Positions 2,591-12,294 of a DNA stretch of 64,000 bases are shown in pieces (position 1 is the stretch's first letter; each line of letters opens with the position of its first letter). Where the stretch lies: positions 248,001 through 312,000 of the forward strand of contig NZ_CP063849.1 in assembly GCF_015277775.1 (NCBI RefSeq), written 5' to 3'. The notes under the pieces were generated by a model, which saw only the letters and a list, made by a program, of their open reading frames with translations, made no database searches and was not told where the DNA came from. The stretch comes from Paludibaculum fermentans (lineage in GTDB: Bacteria > Acidobacteriota > Terriglobia > Bryobacterales > Bryobacteraceae). The position numbers and the translations under genes are program-made.

Positions 2591-4267
2591 TTGACTCAGC
2601 ACGCCATCCAGTTGCCCCGCTTTGGTCTCGCAGCCAAACTGGCGGGGTGTCTGCTGGCCGCCGTAATCGTCTGTTTTACCCTCTTTGCTTACGTACTCCA
2701 GCGCCTCGAGCAGAAACATCTCGAGGCGCTGGTGTCGCTTTCCGCTGAACGCATCTCCGACGTAGTGCACTCCTCCGCCTGGCAGGCGATGCTCCACAAC
2801 GACCGCGAGATGCTCTACTCGATGATCCGCGACATCGGCCGTGAACCGGGCATTCGCAAGCTCCGCATCATCAACGAGGAAGGGCAGGTGCGCCACTCCA
2901 CCGATCCAAAGGAGATCGGGAGCATGGTGGATAAGGGCGCCGAGAGCTGTTACGCCTGTCACGCGCAATCCCGTCCGCTCACCAAGTTGGCCCGCCACGA
3001 CCGGGCGCGCATCTTCACCGGCGCCGATGGCCGCCGCACCCTCGCCGTCATCCGCCCCATCGAAAACGCCACGGAATGCTCCAACGCCGCCTGCCACGCG
3101 CACCCGGCCGAACGCCGCATCCTGGGCGTGATCGATGCCCACCTGGCGCTGGACGCCGTCGACGCGCAACTCGCCGAGCATCGCACGCAAGCCTACAGTT
3201 TCACCACCGCCACTGCCTTTTTCGCCTGCCTGCTCTCGATTGGGTTCGTCTGGTGGTTTGTCCACCGGCCGATGCGCGAACTGATGGTTGGGACCCTTAA
3301 CCTGGCCCAGGGCCACTTCGACCATAGGATCGAAGTTCATTCCACGGACGAGATGGGGGTCCTGGCGACCTCCTTCAACGAGATGGCCGCGGAACTGGAG
3401 GAAGCCCATTCCGAACTCACCCGCTGGGCGCATACGCTGGAAACGCGTGTGCAGCAGAAGACCGCGGAGCTGGAAACCGCCCACAAGGGACTGATCCATA
3501 CCGAGAAGATGGCCTCCCTGGGCCGCCTGGCCGCCACGGTGGCGCATGAGGTGAACAATCCGCTGTTCGGCATGCTCACCTATGCCCGCCTCACCCTCAA
3601 GGACCTGAGGAAGCCGGATCTGGACGAAGCCACGCGCCAGCGCATGACCGAGAGCCTGCAGGTGATTGAACGCGAAAGCCGGCGCTGCGGGGAACTCATG
3701 AAGAACCTGCTGGCCTTCGCCCGGCAGAGCCCGCCCCAGCGCGCGCCTGTCCAGGTCAACATGGTGGTGGAGCGCGCCGTCACTCTCATCGCGCACCAGC
3801 TCGATCTTGCCCAGACTGTCCTGATCAAGGAACTCGATCCTTCGCTGCCTGAAGTGCAGTGCGACGCCGGCCAGATCCAGCAGGTGCTCATCGTGCTGGT
3901 CGTGAACGCGTCCGAGGCGCTGGGCAAGGGCGGAGAGATTCGGGTGATCACCGAAGCCGCGCCGGCGGGGCAGGGCATTGTGCTGCGTGTGAAGGACAAC
4001 GGCCCGGGCATCCCCTCCACGATCCAGCAGCAGATCTTTGAGCCCTTTTTCAGCACGAAGGACAACCAGCACCGCACCGGCCTGGGCCTGGCCGTGGCCA
4101 AGGGCATCGTCGATCGCCACGGCGGCACGCTCGCCGTGCAGTCTTTGCCCGGACAGGGCGCTGAGTTTATCGTGCATCTGCCGCTGTGTGCGCCAGCGGA
4201 AACCCCCGGCGGCCCGGCTCCAGCAGCCAGGACAGCCGATCCAACATCGCAAGGAACGAATGTATGA
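2591..4267 (+). CDS. membrane sensor histidine kinase with extracytoplasmic heme c motifs
   Basis: This 558-residue kinase begins at a TTG six bases after the NrfD-like gene. Order: membrane helix (about 14-36), extracytoplasmic sensor region (about 37-204), second helix (about 205-227), HAMP, coiled coil, HisKA with H319 in VAHEVNNPL, and an HATPase domain with DNGPGIP and GLGLAVAKG. The sensor region carries CYACH (C120, C123, H124) and CSNAACH (C163, C168, H169). The first is a classic CX2CH heme c site and the second a CX4CH variant, so it plausibly senses redox state or a diatomic gas through covalent heme. It overlaps the next gene by ATGA and is very likely the cognate kinase for that regulator. 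Heme attachment is inferred from motif only. Confidence 0.88.
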   Translation: MTQHAIQLPRFGLAAKLAGCLLAAVIVCFTLFAYVLQRLEQKHLEALVSLSAERISDVVHSSAWQAMLHNDREMLYSMIRDIGREPGIRKLRIINEEGQVRHSTDPKEIGSMVDKGAESCYACHAQSRPLTKLARHDRARIFTGADGRRTLAVIRPIENATECSNAACHAHPAERRILGVIDAHLALDAVDAQLAEHRTQAYSFTTATAFFACLLSIGFVWWFVHRPMRELMVGTLNLAQGHFDHRIEVHSTDEMGVLATSFNEMAAELEEAHSELTRWAHTLETRVQQKTAELETAHKGLIHTEKMASLGRLAATVAHEVNNPLFGMLTYARLTLKDLRKPDLDEATRQRMTESLQVIERESRRCGELMKNLLAFARQSPPQRAPVQVNMVVERAVTLIAHQLDLAQTVLIKELDPSLPEVQCDAGQIQQVLIVLVVNASEALGKGGEIRVITEAAPAGQGIVLRVKDNGPGIPSTIQQQIFEPFFSTKDNQHRTGLGLAVAKGIVDRHGGTLAVQSLPGQGAEFIVHLPLCAPAETPGGPAPAARTADPTSQGTNV

Positions 4268-5616
4268 ATAGCGGGAAACTTCTCATCGTCGACGACGACA
4301 TCGTCGTACGCGACTCTCTCGGGAAGTGGTTTGAGAGCGAAGGCTTCGACGTCACCATCGCTCCGGGCGCTCCCGCCGCGCTGGAGATCCTCAGCCGCGA
4401 ACGCTTCGACCTGGCCCTCGTCGACATCAAGATGCCCGGAGTGGATGGTATCGAACTGCAGGCCCGCCTCAAGGAGATCGACCAGGACATGCCTGTCGTC
4501 ATCATGACGGGCTACGCGTCGGTCGAGACGGCTGTCCGCGCCCTCAAGAACGGCGCCTACGATTACATTACAAAGCCCTTCGACCCGGACGAACTCGTTC
4601 ACCTGGTTTCGAACGCCATCTCGCACCGCACCGCCACCCGGGAAGTCGTCCGCCTGCGCGAGAACCTGAAGCAGATCTTTCCCGATACCCAGCTGATCGG
4701 CCAGAGCGCGTCGATGAAGCGTGTGATGGAACTGGTGGAGACCGTGGCGCCCACCGATGCCACCGTGCTCATCACAGGCGAAAGCGGCACGGGCAAGGAA
4801 GTGGTGGCCCGCGCGATCCACGCCGCCAGCCCGCGGCGGTTCAACCCGATGGTGGTGATCCACTGCGGAGCGTTGACTGAGTCCCTGCTCGAGAGTGAGC
4901 TCTTCGGCCACGAACGTGGAGCCTTCACCGGAGCCCAGGCCCGGAAGAAAGGCAAGTTTGAAGTGGCCGATGGCGGAACTGTCTTCCTGGACGAAATCTC
5001 GGACATCAGCCTGCACGTGCAGACGGACCTGTTGCGCGTCCTGCAACAGAAGGAGATTGTCCGAGTCGGCGACACGCAGCAGATCAAGGTGGACTTCCGG
5101 GCCATTGCAGCCACCAACAAGAGTCTCGAGCAACTGGTGGAAGAGCGGCTGTTCCGGCCTGACCTTTACTACCGCCTGAACGTCTTTGCCATCGATATCC
5201 CACCCGTGCGTTCACGCCGCGAGGACATCCCGCTGCTGGTGGACCATTTCCTGCAGAAGTTCGCGGGCCAGATGAACCGGCCGGTGCAGCGGCTGTCGCC
5301 CCGCGCCCTGGAAGTCCTGATGGACTACAACTGGCCCGGCAACGTGCGTGAAATGGAGAATGCGATTGAGCGCGCCATGCTCATCAATCGCGAAACAGAG
5401 CTGCGGCCGGAGGACTTCCCGTTCCAGTCCCATCCCTCCCTGCTCAGCGGGGCCGTCGGACAGCGCCTGGAAGACATCGAGAAGACGCACATCGAGAAGA
5501 TGCTGCAGGAGACGAACTGGAACCTCTCCAAGACGGCACGCATCCTCGACATTGACCGCACGACGCTCTACAACAAGATCAAGCGTTATGGACTGAGAGA
5601 CGCCGCGCCCAAGTGA
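4264..5616 (+). CDS. NtrC-family sigma-54-dependent response regulator
   Basis: The 450-residue regulator has a receiver domain (acidic pocket DDD near 10-12, phospho-acceptor D54 in LVDIKMP, conserved Lys in ITKPF). An AAA+ sigma-54-interaction domain follows, with Walker A GESGTGKE, GAFTGA at 219-224 and an R-finger region ending NWPGNVREMENA. A Fis-type helix-turn-helix ends the protein (NLSKTARILDIDRTTLYNKI). The intact GAFTGA means it should activate sigma-54 RNA polymerase. It is fused translationally (ATGA) to the heme-motif kinase, so the pair probably controls the upstream redox operon or related respiratory genes. No convincing -24/-12 promoter was seen nearby; the operon promoter probably lies left of the window. 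Confidence 0.92.
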   Translation: MNSGKLLIVDDDIVVRDSLGKWFESEGFDVTIAPGAPAALEILSRERFDLALVDIKMPGVDGIELQARLKEIDQDMPVVIMTGYASVETAVRALKNGAYDYITKPFDPDELVHLVSNAISHRTATREVVRLRENLKQIFPDTQLIGQSASMKRVMELVETVAPTDATVLITGESGTGKEVVARAIHAASPRRFNPMVVIHCGALTESLLESELFGHERGAFTGAQARKKGKFEVADGGTVFLDEISDISLHVQTDLLRVLQQKEIVRVGDTQQIKVDFRAIAATNKSLEQLVEERLFRPDLYYRLNVFAIDIPPVRSRREDIPLLVDHFLQKFAGQMNRPVQRLSPRALEVLMDYNWPGNVREMENAIERAMLINRETELRPEDFPFQSHPSLLSGAVGQRLEDIEKTHIEKMLQETNWNLSKTARILDIDRTTLYNKIKRYGLRDAAPK

Positions 5617-6158
5617 TCTTAGCCATCCACCTCGTCCCGCTTTCCCTGGCGAGTGGCGAGGGGTTGCCGCCGCTCTCGGTACTCGACCGCCTGGCCGCCG
5701 CCACGGCGCGCGCCATGGCCGTCTCCTGCCGGGTCGAGACCGAACCCATTACCATCGATTACGCGTTCGACGCCTATCGCATGCAGGCATGGTCCACGCC
5801 GGTGCTGGCGCGCCTGCACGAGCGCAAGCCGCCCGCGGGCACAGTGGTGCTGGGTGTGACCGCGCTCGATCTCTACGTGCCTGTGCTGACGTTTGTATTC
5901 GGTGAGGCGCAACTGGGCGGACCGGCAGCGATTGTCTCGACCCACCGCCTGCGTGATGAGTATTACGGCCTCCCGCCCAGGGAAGAGGCGGTTTCCCAGC
6001 GCCTCTTCAAGGAGCTATTGCACGAGGTCGGTCATACCCAAGGCCTGCGGCACTGCACGGATTGGCGCTGCGTGATGTCGTCCGCCCATACCGTGGAACG
6101 CATCGATGTGCGCCAGGCGGCCTACTGCCGGCCCTGCGCCGAGGCGTTCAGCCGCTGA
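5613..6158 (+). CDS. archaemetzincin-like zinc metalloprotease
   Basis: The 181-residue protein has HEVGHTQGLRHC, followed by CVM and a C-terminal CRPC. This matches the archaemetzincin signature HExxHxxGxxHC...CxM...CxxC, in which three His bind catalytic zinc and four Cys form a second structural zinc site. Length is typical of the family. The GTG start overlaps the regulator stop (GTGA), so it is the last gene of the redox/two-component operon. Substrates of bacterial archaemetzincins are unknown to me. No signal peptide is apparent, so it is probably cytoplasmic. Confidence 0.85.
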   Translation: MILAIHLVPLSLASGEGLPPLSVLDRLAAATARAMAVSCRVETEPITIDYAFDAYRMQAWSTPVLARLHERKPPAGTVVLGVTALDLYVPVLTFVFGEAQLGGPAAIVSTHRLRDEYYGLPPREEAVSQRLFKELLHEVGHTQGLRHCTDWRCVMSSAHTVERIDVRQAAYCRPCAEAFSR

Positions 6159-6463: not shown

Positions 6464-7177
6464 TCAGTTCTTTGGATTTTGTCCAGCCACCTGTATGACG
6501 GTGGGCCGCATCTGTTCCGGGTGAAACCCAAAGGGACCCGGGCCGCTTTTATACCGGACATAGCCGTCTTTGTCGATGACATAAAGCCGGTCGGGCCAGC
6601 CGGTGTAGGCCAAATCCACCGCGTTGTCGATGCCGTCAAGCAGCGCCGGCATCTCCAGGCCCAGTTTGCGGACGCAAGCCGACGCGACCAGCGACCGGTC
6701 CTGCTGCGTCTTCGGCGTGGCAAAGATTACGCCGTCTTTCTCATTCACCGGCAACTGCCACATGTCGCTGGCGTGCGCTTCCTGGATATACACCACATAG
6801 AAATCCACGCGATCGCGGAACTCGCGGTACATCGCGTTCAGGACGGGAACCTCCCGCCGGAAGGGCGGTCAAGTGTAGCTCCCGAACACCAGGACCACAG
6901 GCCGGGAACCGCGCAGCTCCGACAAGCGCACGCGCCCCTGGTGATCCTGCCGTTCCAGCGTGAAGTCCGGAGCCAGGTCGCCCGGCTTCACCGTACCCGC
7001 CCGCGCCTTCGCCCACATGGGCGGAAAGGGCGTTGCGTACATCAGGGGCATCGGCAGCACCATCATGAAGCGGCTGAAGTCCATGGGCGAGTTCGTCATC
7101 GCCGCGTACATGACGCCCAGGAAGACGACGTAGATTGCGAGAATGGCCAGCCCGATCCGCAATGCCCAGCGCTTCAT
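6464..7177 (-). CDS. iodothyronine deiodinase-like selenoprotein (UGA103 = selenocysteine)
   Basis: Read through one in-frame TGA at 6869-6871, the gene encodes 237 residues. Residues 5-27 form a membrane anchor. A thioredoxin-fold redoxin domain follows (GDLAPDFTL), with the active site FGSYT-U-PPF and Sec at 103. Further deiodinase-family matches after the TGA are VVYIQEAHASD, IDNAVDLAYTG and PDRLYVIDKDGYVRYKSGPGPFGF. Both sides of the TGA are needed for the family domain, with no frame change. A hairpin just downstream (6841-6858) has bacterial SECIS geometry. The ATG overlaps the RNase R stop (ATGA), so the two are cotranscribed. The likely activity is a membrane-tethered peroxiredoxin-like or reductive dehalogenating selenol; a thyroid-hormone substrate is not expected. 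No sel genes are in the window. A gene caller would split this into 6869-7177 and 6464-6832. Confidence 0.9.
6841..6858 (-). promoter_or_regulatory. bacterial SECIS-like hairpin for UGA103
   Basis: On the minus strand, bases 11-28 after the TGA read GGCGGGAGGUUCCCGUCC. They fold into a 6-bp stem with one bulged U and the apical loop AGGUU. The loop GGU lies 18-20 nt after the UGA; by my count from memory, in E. coli fdhF it lies 19-21 nt after the UGA and the loop is AGGUCU. The hairpin is inside the coding region, as bacterial SECIS elements are. A competing local stem, CCGCC with GGCGG just 3' of the UGA, shares part of the 5' arm. Confidence 0.75.
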
Positions 7178-9486
7178 CGGCCCTTGCCCCCCTTCCGCTT
7201 GATGCCTTTCGGCGGCCCGGGTACGACGATGGAGAAGATCAGCTTCTTCTCGACGGCGTCGACGCGATCCAGCCGGACTTTTACTTTATCGCCAATCCGG
7301 ATCTCCTTGCGGCTGCGCTCGGCCACAATGGTTCGCGAATTCTCCTGGAAATTCCAGCGCTCACCAGGTAGGAAGTCGATCGGCACCAGTCCTTCGACGA
7401 AGAGGTCGTCCAATTCCACGAAGAATCCGAATTTGGCGGTGGAGATCACCAGGCCCTGGAAATCCTCGCCCACCCGGTCGATCATGAACTTGACCTTCTT
7501 CCACTCCATCAGCTCGCGCTCCGCCTCGGCCGCGCGGCGCTCAGTATCCGAGCTCTGTTCCGCCATCACCGGCAGCCCCATGATCGGGGCAGGCCTGCCG
7601 TCCAGCAGCCCGCCCAGCAGGCGGTGCACCAGCAGGTCGGGATAGCGCCGGATGGGCGACGTGAAGTGCGTATAAGATTTCGCCGCCAGGGCGAAGTGCC
7701 CGACGTTCTTCGTCGAGTAGCGCGCCTGCTTCAGCGACCGCAGCATCAGGTAGCTGAGGATCCGCTCTTCGGGTTTGCCCTCCAGCTTTTCCACCAGCTT
7801 CTGGTACATCTTTGAAGCCACGCGGAAACTGTCGTCCGCCCGCTCGATCACGCGCAGGATGCGGCGGCCGTCGTTCTTGCGGTCCACCTGCCGGTACCGC
7901 TTCACCGGCATGGCGGGGATCCCCAACGAGTAGCCGAACCGCGACGCGGTTTCCTCAAACTCCATCACGCGCTGCGGATCCGGCACTTCGTGCACGCGGT
8001 AGATCGACTCGTCGAGGTGCGACTCCAGATGGCCCGACACGGCCTCGTTCGCGGCCAGCATGAACTCCTCAATCAGCCGGTTTGCGATGTTCCTTGGAGT
8101 CCGCGCAATGCCCGTCATCACGCCCTGCGCGTCGAACACCACCAGCGGTTCCGGCAGGTCGAAGTCGATGGAGCCGCGCCGCATGCGCTGCTTGTTCAGC
8201 ACCAGCGCCAGTTCCTTCATCAGCTCGAACTTCGGGACCAGGTCCTTGTAGCGCTCGCGCTGCGCCGCGTCGCCTTCCAGCAGCAGGTGGACGTTCGTAT
8301 ACGTCATCCGCTCCACACTGCGGATCACGCCGCGGCAGAACTCCTGCTTCACCACCTCGCCCTGGCGGTCGATCTCCAGCAGCGCGCTCATGCACAGCCG
8401 GTCCACCTGCGGCTTCAGCGAGCAGATCTCCGTCGAGAGCTCCAGCGGCAGCATCGGCACGGCGCGATCGGGGAAATAGACGCTGGTCCCGCGCACCAGT
8501 GCTTCCAGGTCGATGGGCGTGCCCGGCCGCACATAGTGGCTGACGTCGGCGATGTGCACATGCAGCGCGTAGTGGCCATTCTCCAGGCGGTCCACCCACA
8601 CGGCGTCGTCGAAGTCGCGAGCTGTCTCGCCGTCGATGGTCACGATCTCCATGCCACGGAAATCGCGCCGGCCGTCCAGCTCGGATTGCGTGATCACGCC
8701 GGGTACATTCTGCGCCTGCTCCAGGACTTCCGGCGGGAAGCGGTTGGGCAGGTGATGCTTGCGGATGGTGACTTCCACGTCGACGCCGAAGTCGTCCGGA
8801 TGGCCCAGCACTTCCACCACACGGCCCACGGGATAGTCATCGGCGTGGTCCGGATACTCGACGATCTCCACGTTCACAATCAGGCCATCCAGATCCTCAG
8901 GCCCGCGCAGGTTCAGCGACGCGGCGCCGATCCGGTCCGGATTGACGCCCGTCTGCGGCAGTTCCATGCCATCCGGGATCAGGATCCACTTCTGCAGCTT
9001 GCTGTCATGTGGCACCACGAAGCTCTGGCGCCGCCCGACGCGAAACTCGCCCACCACTGTGGGATGCGCGCGGCGCAGAATCTTGCGGATCTCGCCTTCG
9101 GCCCGGCCGCCCTGCACGCGCGTAATTCGCGCCAGCACGCGATCGCCGTGCATCGCCGCACCCATGGAATTCGGAGGCAGGAAGACGTCTCCGCTCAACC
9201 CCAGCGGCTGCGTCTCAGGGATTACAAAGCCGTAGCCGTCGCGGTGCATGTTCAGCCGCCCCACGGCGTACTCCTGGGTGCAGCGCGGCAGCACATACTG
9301 GCCGCCTTTCAGTTCAATCAGCGAGCCCTTGCGCGCCAGGCGGTCCAGCGCGTCTTCCAGCGCCTGACGGTTCTCGCCCTTCAGTCCGAGCTCCCGCACC
9401 AGATGCTTATAGTTCGAGCGGCCGTGAGGCAGAGTGGAGAACCGCTCCAGAATCTCGTTCTCCCATTGCCAGTCACTTCGATGCAT
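7174..9486 (-). CDS. rnr: ribonuclease R
   Basis: A 770-residue RNase II/R-family 3'-5' exoribonuclease. It has an N-terminal winged-helix region, cold-shock-like OB domains (VGRLNMHRDGYGFVIPE), the RNB catalytic core with DGETARDFDDAV (metal-binding Asp cluster) and HIADVSHYV, the HFTSPIRRYPDLLVHR signature, and a C-terminal S1 domain (GLVISTAKFGFFVELDDLFVEGLV) ending in a short basic tail. It degrades structured RNA in the cytoplasm. I chose the ATG at 9486 because the longer frame would overlap the upstream VWA gene stop. It sits 26 bp after the VWA gene and overlaps the selenoprotein gene by 4 bp. Confidence 0.93.
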   Translation of the reverse strand: MHRSDWQWENEILERFSTLPHGRSNYKHLVRELGLKGENRQALEDALDRLARKGSLIELKGGQYVLPRCTQEYAVGRLNMHRDGYGFVIPETQPLGLSGDVFLPPNSMGAAMHGDRVLARITRVQGGRAEGEIRKILRRAHPTVVGEFRVGRRQSFVVPHDSKLQKWILIPDGMELPQTGVNPDRIGAASLNLRGPEDLDGLIVNVEIVEYPDHADDYPVGRVVEVLGHPDDFGVDVEVTIRKHHLPNRFPPEVLEQAQNVPGVITQSELDGRRDFRGMEIVTIDGETARDFDDAVWVDRLENGHYALHVHIADVSHYVRPGTPIDLEALVRGTSVYFPDRAVPMLPLELSTEICSLKPQVDRLCMSALLEIDRQGEVVKQEFCRGVIRSVERMTYTNVHLLLEGDAAQRERYKDLVPKFELMKELALVLNKQRMRRGSIDFDLPEPLVVFDAQGVMTGIARTPRNIANRLIEEFMLAANEAVSGHLESHLDESIYRVHEVPDPQRVMEFEETASRFGYSLGIPAMPVKRYRQVDRKNDGRRILRVIERADDSFRVASKMYQKLVEKLEGKPEERILSYLMLRSLKQARYSTKNVGHFALAAKSYTHFTSPIRRYPDLLVHRLLGGLLDGRPAPIMGLPVMAEQSSDTERRAAEAERELMEWKKVKFMIDRVGEDFQGLVISTAKFGFFVELDDLFVEGLVPIDFLPGERWNFQENSRTIVAERSRKEIRIGDKVKVRLDRVDAVEKKLIFSIVVPGPPKGIKRKGGKGR

Positions 9487-9512
9487 GATTTCTACTGTAG
9501 CGGCAAAAGCCG

Positions 9513-10646
9513 TCAGTGAATGGTGCGTGTTTTGCGGTTCAGGAAGTCCATCAGCAGGTACTGGCCCAGATTGTAGGGCGTCGTGAAATAGGCCTTGCCC
9601 TTGCACATCTCAGTCACCTTCTGGACGAACTGCACCAGCGAGTAGTCGCTGGCCAGCATGAAGGTGTTGATCAGGATCCCGGCCCGCTTGCAGCGGCCCA
9701 CCTCTTCCAGCGTCTTGCTCAGCACCAGCGGATCCAGGCCCATCGGGTTCTTGTAAATGCGCCCGTCGTCCAGCGTCAGGGCCGAAGGCTTGCCGTCCGT
9801 GATCATCACGATCTGCTTCATGTCCTTCTTTTCCGACGCCAGGATGCGCTGCGCCAGAATCAGGCCGTCCCGCGTGTTCGTATAGTAAGGACCCACCTGG
9901 ACGCGAGCCAGTTCGCCCAGCCGCACCTCCTCCGCTGAATCGTGGAACAGCACCAGCCTCAGCGAGTCGCCCGGGAACTGTGTGCGGATCAGGTGCGACA
10001 GCGCCAGCGCTACGCGCTTCGCCGGTGTGAAACGGTCCTCTCCATAGAGGATCATCGAATGGCTGCAATCCAGCATCAGCACAGTCGCACACGAGCTCTG
10101 ATACTCACTCTGGTGCACGTGCAGGTCGTCGTACTCGATCTCGAGCGGCAGCTTCAAGCCCTCGCGCTGCAAGGCGGAGAACAGGGTGGCGCTGGCGTCC
10201 AGGTTCAGGGTGTCGCCGAACTCCCACTTCTTGGACGACCCGCTGGACTCCACGCCCGTCGACAAGTCGCGAGTCTCATGCGCCCCGAACGATGACCGCC
10301 CCAGCGCGCCCATCAGGTCCTTCAGCGTCTTGAAGCCCAGGAAGTCGATGGCCTTGTCGGTGATCTCCACCTTCACCGGCTTCTCCGGGTCATCTTCCTG
10401 ATTCAGATACCCTTCTTCTTCCAGCTTGGCCAGCAGCCCGTCCAAGGCGCGCTCGATGCTCTCCTTATCGAATTCGCCTTTCTCTTCCAGTGCCCGCTTC
10501 AAGGCTTCGCGCAGCTCCTCCATCGTCAACTCGCGCCAGCCGTCGAAGCCGCTGTCCAGCATCAGGTCGCCCAACATCTGCATCAGATCCTCGGCCGAAA
10601 GGCCCAGGTCTGTTTCTTCGAAGCGTCCGTAGCGTATTTTTTTCAT
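9513..10646 (-). CDS. VWA-domain protein partnered with MoxR-like ATPase
   Basis: The 377-residue protein has an acidic, helical N-terminal region (about 1-110) rich in Glu/Lys and a C-terminal von Willebrand factor A domain. The MIDAS motif is DCSHS, with a downstream Thr in YTNTRDG and an Asp in MITDGKPS. No signal peptide is present, so it is cytoplasmic. It follows the AAA+ ATPase gene by 30 bp. MoxR/VWA pairs work as chelatase-like or chaperone-like remodelling complexes that use the MIDAS metal to bind a client. The client is unknown; cotranscription with RNase R and a selenoprotein is suggestive only. Confidence 0.85.
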
Positions 10647-10676: not shown

Positions 10677-12206
10677 TCAGTTGTAATTCCGCTTCTTGTC
10701 CTTGCGCCGGCGCGGCGGCCAATCGTTCTCTTCCTCTTCCTCGCCATTCCAGTCCTGCGGATCCGATGAAGGTCCATCGCCGCCCTGGAAGCCCAGTTCC
10801 TCACTGCGGCCGATCCGCTTCAACGCGTAGAGGCCTTCCAGGATGAACTCGCCCGCCGCCGCCCGCACCCCGTCGCTCTCGTTCTCTGTGAGGCCCAGAT
10901 GCTTCGTCTTTTCCAGCAACCCGGGAATCGACGACAGCGCGTTCACTACCTCGGCGGAGGTCGACAGTTCATTCAGCTTCAAGGTCCCGCCGGCCGAGAA
11001 GTGCTGGATCACTTCCCGTACGCTGACGTTCTCGAAGTGCTTCTTGTAAACGCGGGCCAGCGCGGCCTTGATCAGCTCGCGCGCCACCGCGTCGCCGCCC
11101 TTCAACTCGCCTTCATACTCCAGTTCCAGCTTGCCCGTAATCGAGGGCAGCGCGGCATAGAGGTCGAGGATTCGCGGGACTGCGTCCGAATCGCCGGTCA
11201 TCAGCGCCCTGCGCTCGGCGTTGGAGACGACGTTCTCCATCACTGAGATGGGCAGCCGCTGGCTCACGCCGCTGCGCTTGTCCACGCGCTTGTCTTCACG
11301 CGCCGCAAAGGCCAGTGTCTCCACCACATCGCGCATCCAGCCCGGTACGGCGATAGAGACAGCCGACTCGCGCTTCGTCCAGGACTCCGCGTTTGTGATC
11401 GCGATACCCTGGTCGACCGTCATCGGATAGTGTGTGCGAATCTCGCTGCCGATGCGGTCCTTTAAGGGTGTGATGATCTTGCCGCGAGCCGTGTAGTCCT
11501 CAGGGTTCGCCGTGAAGACCATCATTAGATCCAGCGGCAGCCGCACGGGGTAGCCCTTGATCTGAACATCACCCTCCTGCAGGATGTTGAACAAACCCAC
11601 CTGGATCTTGCCCGCCAGGTCGGGCAGTTCGTTGATGGCGAAGATTCCGCGATTGGCGCGCGGCAGCAGGCCGTAGTGCACTGTCAGTTCGTCGCTGATG
11701 TTCTGCCCGGCGCGGGCCGCTTTGATCGGATCCAGGTCTCCGATCATATCCGCGATGGTCACGTCCGGCGTGGCCAGCTTCTCGACGTAGCGCTGCTCGG
11801 GCGTCAGCCACGCAATGGGCGTCTCCTCGCCCATCTCTTCCACGGTCAGGCGGCCCATCTTGCTCAGCGGCTGGTAGGGGTTGTCGCGGATCTCCGACCC
11901 GGCGATGTACGGCATCGCCTCGTCCAGCAGGTAGGTGAGCATGCGCACCAGCTTCGTTTTCGCCTGTCCGCGCAGGCCCAGCAGGATGAAATTGTGCTTG
12001 GAAAGCACGGCATTCACCACCTGCGGAACCACTGTATCTTCATAGCCCACAATGCCTGGAAACAGCGTTTTGCCCTGTTTCAGCTTGCAGATCAGATTCT
12101 CCCGCATCTCGTCTTTGACGCTACGGCAGCGGCTGCGCTGCTCCGACCACTCGCTGCGGCGCAGCGCGCCGAGGGTATGCGGCAATTCCCAGGTGTTGAC
12201 GCCCAT
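10677..12206 (-). CDS. MoxR/magnesium-chelatase-like AAA+ ATPase
   Basis: A 509-residue AAA+ protein. Visible features are an N-terminal segment (TLGALRRS, SVKDEMRENL), a Walker A-like GLRGQAKTK, a Walker B-like IFAINELPDL, a sensor-1 FTANPEDYT and a Lys/Glu/Asp-rich C-terminal tail. It belongs to the MoxR/chelatase branch and is followed by its VWA partner. The start is uncertain: ATG at 12206 is used here, a GTG at 12221 would add five residues, and an internal Met before RENLICKL is possible. It is first in the leftward operon and divergent from the TrmB-like regulator, about 90 bp away. Confidence 0.85.
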   Translation of the reverse strand: MGVNTWELPHTLGALRRSEWSEQRSRCRSVKDEMRENLICKLKQGKTLFPGIVGYEDTVVPQVVNAVLSKHNFILLGLRGQAKTKLVRMLTYLLDEAMPYIAGSEIRDNPYQPLSKMGRLTVEEMGEETPIAWLTPEQRYVEKLATPDVTIADMIGDLDPIKAARAGQNISDELTVHYGLLPRANRGIFAINELPDLAGKIQVGLFNILQEGDVQIKGYPVRLPLDLMMVFTANPEDYTARGKIITPLKDRIGSEIRTHYPMTVDQGIAITNAESWTKRESAVSIAVPGWMRDVVETLAFAAREDKRVDKRSGVSQRLPISVMENVVSNAERRALMTGDSDAVPRILDLYAALPSITGKLELEYEGELKGGDAVARELIKAALARVYKKHFENVSVREVIQHFSAGGTLKLNELSTSAEVVNALSSIPGLLEKTKHLGLTENESDGVRAAAGEFILEGLYALKRIGRSEELGFQGGDGPSSDPQDWNGEEEEENDWPPRRRKDKKRNYN

Positions 12207-12294
12207 GTAGATCAGATGCACGAACTGCCCCGGGTGTTGCAGCGGCAGCCGTTTCCTTGTGATATACCTGATGAACCTAAGGATGAATGGGGAT

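Follow-up and report, generated by a model that had tools for sequence, protein, structure and literature searches.

A deiodinase-like selenoprotein gene of Paludibaculum fermentans, its in-frame TGA codon and the candidate partner cysteine of its product

Does an in-frame TGA codon in the genome of Paludibaculum fermentans end a short reading frame, or does it specify selenocysteine (Sec) within a single protein of the deiodinase family, and what might such a protein do in a bacterium? The codon lies in the window analyzed here, i.e. a stretch of 64,000 nucleotides (contig NZ_CP063849.1, positions 248,001 to 312,000), whose own coordinates are used throughout. The answer bears on the role of bacterial deiodinase-like selenoproteins, and hence on what deiodinases were before thyroid hormone. 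The locus is also an example of a selenoprotein gene that is cut in two by ordinary ORF calling and missed by annotation.

Reading frame and encoded protein

Reading of the frames distinguished a single gene of 237 residues on the minus strand, which starts with the ATG at 7177 (Table 1). Past the in-frame TGA the frame runs for 134 more codons before the stop codon TGA 6464-6466, and the coordinates of both codons (the former at 6869-6871) were given exactly in an earlier interpretation made from the letters alone (the sequence-only reading). Standard ORF calling splits the gene into frames of 102 aa (6869-7177) and 122 aa (6464-6832), i.e. the two bogus fragments that this reading had expected of standard annotation. 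It had also claimed that both sides of the TGA are needed to form one deiodinase-family domain, and this was borne out by the read-through protein: residues 62-225, spanning the TGA, match the Pfam family T4_deiodinase (PF00837) with an E-value of 1.2e-30 (107 bits versus a gathering cut-off of 27; 100.2 bits in the genome-wide profile search). The best relatives with solved structures were DIO2 (4.4e-21) and DIO3 (1.1e-20). By comparison, the predicted product belongs to the deiodinase family, has a thioredoxin fold and is anchored in the membrane.

Table 1. Features of the selenoprotein locus (window coordinates).
Feature	Position	Strand	Description	Basis or distribution
Deiodinase-like selenoprotein gene	6464..7177	-	237 residues; Sec = codon 103; terminal stop TGA 6464-6466	PF00837 homology, selection
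In-frame TGA, predicted selenocysteine U103 in FGSYTUPPF	6869..6871	-		TGA at 91/105 loci, Cys codon at the other 14
SECIS-type stem-loop	6842..6858	-	spans nt +11 to +27 past the UGA; stem of 7 bp capped by a GGU triloop (+18 to +20)	
Predicted N-terminal transmembrane helix, residues 8-26	7100..7156	-		hydrophobicity; model helix 2-29
Cys168 codon	6674..6676	-	the protein's only Cys; candidate resolving cysteine	
Codon 151	6725..6727	-	Ile in the window protein; site of the partner Cys in the second large clade	
rnr (RNase R)	7174..9540	-	overlaps the selenoprotein start by ATGA	
VWA-domain protein gene	9513..10646	-	upstream of rnr	near the selenoprotein gene only in the window, L026 and L084
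AAA ATPase gene, MoxR/chelatase type	10677..12221	-	upstream of the VWA gene	near the selenoprotein gene only in the window, L026 and L084

The membrane anchor proposed in the sequence-only reading corresponds to a 19-residue span (residues 8-26) with a mean Kyte-Doolittle hydrophobicity of 2.4. A similar membrane-helix-like stretch is present in 81 of the 88 testable Sec proteins of the class set described below. Membrane anchors can be oriented by the positive-inside rule, and the presence of Lys/Arg within the first seven residues of the window protein suggests that its catalytic domain faces the periplasm.

Homologues were sought in 299 genomes of one class. A PF00837 match was found in 99 of them, and 86 have a TGA inside the match, so a sequencing error at 6869-6871, which the sequence-only reading had named as a possible flaw, can be dismissed. 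The matches covering the Sec position comprise 105 loci (window and L026 included) with TGA (91), TGC (9) or TGT (5) at this codon; the alignment of position 103 that had been suggested thus reveals Sec or Cys in 105/105 loci of the class set. One distant row (L170) of the merged class and phylum set (131 rows) has Thr at this position. Phylum-wide, 38 of 396 genomes contain a match, some of these genomes overlapping with the class set. Scanning of contigs with one protein yielded one relative, 95% identical, in an Acidobacteria MAG. Two homologues look damaged, namely L100 of genome G079, with TAG and TAA besides TGA within the match, and L127, which is split over two frames. The plasmid search returned one record, Mycolicibacterium vanbaalenii NZ_CP126902.1 (138737-139141; 25.9% identity), in which a distant deiodinase-like protein is annotated on a plasmid.

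Selection was compared on the two sides of the TGA. The dN/dS ratios before this codon are 0.025 (versus L026) and 0.044 (versus L084), and those after it are 0.043 and 0.091, respectively. Judged by these values, strong purifying selection maintains the two halves as a single protein.

Decoding of the TGA codon

The sequence-only reading had proposed that the rest of the genome be checked for selA-D and tRNA-Sec. The P. fermentans genome (9.53 Mb, two contigs) contains selA (408 bits), selB (358 bits), selD (353 bits) and a tRNA-Sec gene (68.8 bits with the Rfam model). The Rfam tRNA-Sec model also matches other tRNAs (14/14 controls, five of them above the cut-off), and the identity of this tRNA is therefore decided by ARAGORN, which calls tRNA-SeC with the anticodon tca. 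Within the window itself neither Rfam (at gathering scores) nor ARAGORN gave a match. The selD gene of this genome (L021, from 1531) contains an in-frame TGA of its own, which is read through (AAGUASK). By comparison, UGA codon 103 is decoded as Sec by the SelA/SelB/SelD/tRNA-Sec system of the genome.

Across the class, 86 genomes have a TGA-type gene and SelA was detected in 84 of these, versus 137 of the 213 others (Fisher 2.8e-11, with kinship ignored), using a presence cut-off of E < 1e-40 that we chose to exclude weak matches to paralogues. The two exceptions are G148, which is 77% complete and has a full SelB, and G260. In the latter (L086, L141) the deiodinase gene is of the TGA type and has a hairpin of 7 bp, and there is no SelA match; no tRNA-Sec was found in the six of eight candidates examined. 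Its SelB match begins only at profile position 72, the N-terminal part being missing, and this selB remnant shares its strand with the deiodinase gene, at a distance of approx. 0.7 kb. The Sec system of G260 looks to be in decay.

Just past the TGA, most loci of the class set can fold into a hairpin whose loop has three bases, the first being G. The window hairpin (7 bp, GGU loop) has an energy of -9.5 kcal/mol when folded alone and is marginal against synonymous shuffles, i.e. codon-shuffled versions encoding the identical peptide (p = 0.068 for the stem and 0.098 for the energy). The same GGU loop occurs in the hairpin of the genome's selD (7 bp, triloop at +21 to +23; p = 0.0022 versus synonymous shuffles). 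Over the 91 Sec loci the mean triloop stem is 5.7 bp versus 3.0 in the shuffled sequences and the mean energy is -10.1 versus -6.3, with 29 loci reaching p 0.05 singly. The corresponding values for the 14 Cys loci are 3.3 versus 2.7 (stem) and -5.6 versus -5.7 (energy).

Two hairpin registers were distinguished among 90 loci, with the loop at +18 (76 loci) or +22 (14 loci); they were assigned by peptide group after the sequences had been seen, which favours the registers. For register +18, 85.3% of the cells are paired and both-side changes occur in five of six pairs, while sliding of the partners by 1-3 positions gave 32.5-70.2% pairing and both-side changes in 2-4 of six pairs, the latter being little below the actual count. 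For register +22 the pairing is 100%, with both-side changes in five of seven pairs, versus 22.4-51.0% and 0-2 of seven pairs after sliding by 1-3 positions. Cys loci pair at 51.2% (+18 register) and 31.6% (+22 register). Stem codons in the largest group of 49 loci are GAG (49/49), GTT (47/49) and CCC (44/49); GTT accounts for 292 of the 1508 Val codons in the selenoprotein-family genes. A G-loop hairpin of 4-8 bp at +18 or +22 was also found, in a count made without shuffle control, in 11 of 19 further Sec loci of the phylum, and a strict G-triloop hairpin at these positions is absent from the other eight. On this pairing evidence, the family has a SECIS-type hairpin past the TGA, the stem of which is preserved by compensatory changes. 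The location of the hairpin inside the coding region distinguishes it from the SECIS of deiodinases, placed in the 3′ UTR by the title of a reference cited in PMC1088965.

Since UGA terminates translation by default, codon 103 might simply be a stop, the two halves representing a pseudogene or two separate proteins. Genome G260, which retains the UGA though its Sec machinery looks decayed, would fit such a view. Against it stand the complete Sec machinery of the P. fermentans genome, the purifying selection that acts before as well as after the UGA, the restriction of the codon to TGA (91/105 loci) or, in the remainder, Cys codons, and the conserved hairpin. The last three observations lead us to discard the plain stop, whose chance we consider very slight. 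A genome-wide reassignment of TGA was set aside because the adjoining rnr gene terminates in TGA. Positions 6464-7177 almost certainly constitute a genuine selenoprotein gene, as judged from these genomic comparisons.

Active site and partner cysteine

Residue numbers and roles of the animal deiodinases were taken from passages of PMC9141512 and PMC12025243. The offset of the DIO3 numbering was set by Sec170, and Trp207, His219, Cys239 and Arg275 were checked to fall on the right letters. Residues S100, T102, Y130 and E133 of the window protein align to DIO3 Ser167, Thr169, Tyr197 and Glu200, and no substitution of them was found in the 91 Sec proteins (two are gapped at Y130 and E133). The window protein thus shares with DIO1-3 (PDB 4tr3, 9h48) the FGSxTUPPF motif and the Ser/Thr/Tyr/Glu network, and also, by prediction, the membrane anchor described for these enzymes in passages of PMC9141512. 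The omega-loop Trp (W140) is present in 83 of the 86 ungapped Sec proteins.

In contrast, Cys168, Cys239, His219 and Arg275 of DIO3 are absent, being aligned to Tyr101, Pro177, Pro155 and Pro213, respectively, while the window protein has a Cys168 of its own. According to passages of PMC12025243, Arg275 binds the substrate carboxylate and His219 is the relay His; these and passages of PMC9141512 discuss Cys124 of DIO1 and Cys168 of DIO3 as resolving or recycling cysteines. Thus neither Sec-2, the place of the resolving Cys of DIO1 and DIO3, nor the position of Cys239 holds a Cys (Tyr101 and Pro177, respectively). As far as the alignment indicates, the selenium-activating part of the site is kept, and the proposed hormone-binding, proton-relay and resolving groups are not.

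Each of the 88 ungapped Sec proteins of the class set has a Cys at exactly one of two sites, 168 (56 proteins) or 151 (32 proteins). A second Cys after the Sec occurs in 12 of the 91 Sec proteins, at site 162 in 11. When the class and phylum sets were combined and duplicates removed, 102 complete Sec proteins were obtained: site 168 is occupied by Cys in 60, site 151 in 35 and site 101 in three, while four have a Cys at none of the three sites (by eye, two of these have a Cys near site 168, one has it elsewhere and one has no Cys). Because 98 of the 102 proteins contain exactly one candidate partner Cys, we propose that it acts as a resolving cysteine, and from this pattern we infer Cys168 as the candidate in the window protein.

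The site-101 form (L147, L151 and L154) reads GSCTUPPF, with the Cys two residues before the Sec as in DIO1 and DIO3, and this string is presumably identical to the mammalian one. The positions of its Cys, Thr and Sec fit those published for DIO in passages of PMC9141512 and PMC12025243. A tree computed after removal of the trait columns requires two changes of the partner site and three of the Sec/Cys state, and three partner-site groups could be distinguished on it, giving a clean pattern composed of few events. A model obtained with AlphaFold2 from two close sequences had a mean pLDDT of 57, with values below 50 in the active-site loop; a Foldseek search with this poor model ranked DIO2 first and DIO3 third, but the TM-scores of only 0.27 and 0.26 lend this little weight.

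Possible role, relatives and genomic context

With a probability of roughly 0.6, we interpret the protein as a periplasm-facing, peroxiredoxin-like Sec thiol oxidoreductase or peroxidase, not a thyroid deiodinase. The membrane anchor would place the domain in the periplasm, where the Ser100/Thr102/Tyr130/Glu133 network would activate Sec103, as in deiodinases. The electrophile that Sec103 would then attack is most likely a peroxide or oxidised thiol, an organic halide being less likely. Cys168 might resolve the oxidised selenium as a selenenylsulfide, to be reduced by a thioredoxin-like or DsbD-type partner, and in the other clades the role of Cys168 might fall to a Cys in position 151 or Sec-2. 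This gives a specific pair to examine, i.e. Sec103 with Cys168, 151 or 101. A proposed peroxidatic residue with a resolving Cys is a likeness to the AhpC/TSA family (PF00578), which the protein also matches (51.5 bits, cut-off 26); however, the protein reaches 107 bits with the deiodinase profile, and its active-site letters are of the deiodinase type.

Two other activities have to be weighed. ResA-type and other thioredoxin-family proteins rank next after the deiodinases in similarity, and the membrane anchor with its putative periplasmic layout would equally suit a ResA/TlpA-type thiol-disulfide exchange protein acting on the thiols of proteins or cytochromes instead of peroxides. Such proteins are, however, recognized by a much weaker model score (37.2 bits for ResA versus 198.7 for the NCBIfam deiodinase model), and neither CxxC nor UxxC is present, the +3 residue being Phe106 (F in 90 and Y in one of the 91 Sec loci), which makes this role improbable, though not negligible. 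Still somewhat less likely is a reductive dehalogenase that works like a deiodinase on a different substrate, with Sec103 removing the halogen of iodinated or brominated aromatics. The motif and network identical to those of DIO1-3, the widespread W140 and the GSCTUPPF form of three phylum-level relatives speak in its favour, whereas the replacement of the DIO3 Arg275 and relay His219 by Pro213 and Pro155 speaks against it, as do 22 neighbour clusters, none of which looked dehalogenation-like when inspected by eye. Human DIO1 remains active when His174 (equivalent to DIO3 His219) is changed to Ala, according to passages of PMC9141512, so loss of the His does not exclude deiodination.

As for the history of the thiol oxidoreductase or peroxidase favoured here, we tentatively suggest, with less than even confidence, that in a bacterial deiodinase-fold family the Sec and its network were retained, whereas the single resolving Cys shifted among Sec-2, loop 151 and helix 168. 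Animal deiodinases might then represent a branch of a more ancient Sec-dependent peroxidase/oxidoreductase that was recruited for hormones through the gain of residues such as Arg275.

Bacterial homologues of deiodinases, mentioned in the sequence-only reading, are indeed documented. Sec-containing ones are described in passages of PMC1088965 (2005), with 4 Sec and 6 Cys sequences from the Sargasso Sea, and of PMC2398784 (2008), with 22 Sec and 21 Cys GOS sequences, the latter passages giving no motif. Both sets have in common with the window protein the PF00837 domain and Sec with Cys homologues; the 2005 set also resembles it in a bacterial SECIS with a G in the apical loop and in a proposed redox role, which the passages put forward as no more than a suggestion. 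By these descriptions the two sets are marine metagenomic, which sets them apart from the family reported here, whose TGA form and SECIS-type hairpins are supplied by the 86 genomes of one class, near-complete ones included. Passages of two reviews (PMC9312934, PMC13188914) give the family motif as UxxC, which differs from the UPPF of the window protein; PMC12013277 does not mention deiodinase. The NCBIfam model NF038285 (deiodinase_rel, "deiodinase family protein") matches residues 65-228 with profile positions 178-341 of 347 (E = 1.8e-58). Its score of 198.7 bits is below the curated cut-off of 250 and its first 177 positions are unmatched, so this model alone, matched in its C-terminal half only, would not name the protein. 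The kind has therefore been known since 2005, while the acidobacterial spread and the partner-Cys pattern were not seen in print in the literature searched, a scope that leaves out most subscription journals and is no proof of absence.

The operon context described in the sequence-only reading, MoxR-VWA-rnr, stands for the window but not for the family as a whole. The VWA and MoxR-type genes (the latter with a Pfam AAA_5 score just below the cut-off) are located upstream of rnr on the same strand, and the selenoprotein gene begins inside the rnr stop codon. Owing to this ATGA overlap, rnr and the selenoprotein gene are probably cotranscribed and translationally coupled. Among the tested loci, many of which reach just 1.5-4 kb per side, rnr adjoins the gene in the window, L026, L084, L085 and L102; with rnr linked at five loci and MoxR-VWA at three, neither indicates the function. 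Neighbours differ between families, and some look like housekeeping genes by eye; in another family, 16 loci have beside them what we take, from the sequence letters, for an inorganic pyrophosphatase gene, and 18 loci what we take for the gene of a pseudouridine synthase of the RsuA type. Assignment of function from neighbouring genes was rejected on account of these differences.

Other gene groups of the window were also noted. A sensor histidine kinase (2591-4267) contains CYACH, a CxxCH motif, as well as CSNAACH with its longer spacing, and our guess from these letters is that it may bind heme. It is followed by genes encoding a sigma-54 response regulator (4186-5616) and a peptidase M54 (5613-6158). 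The segment 666-2584 encodes an HmcB/HybA-like ferredoxin and an HmcC-like membrane subunit of an unnamed respiratory module, both scoring under the curated cut-offs of the families listed for them.
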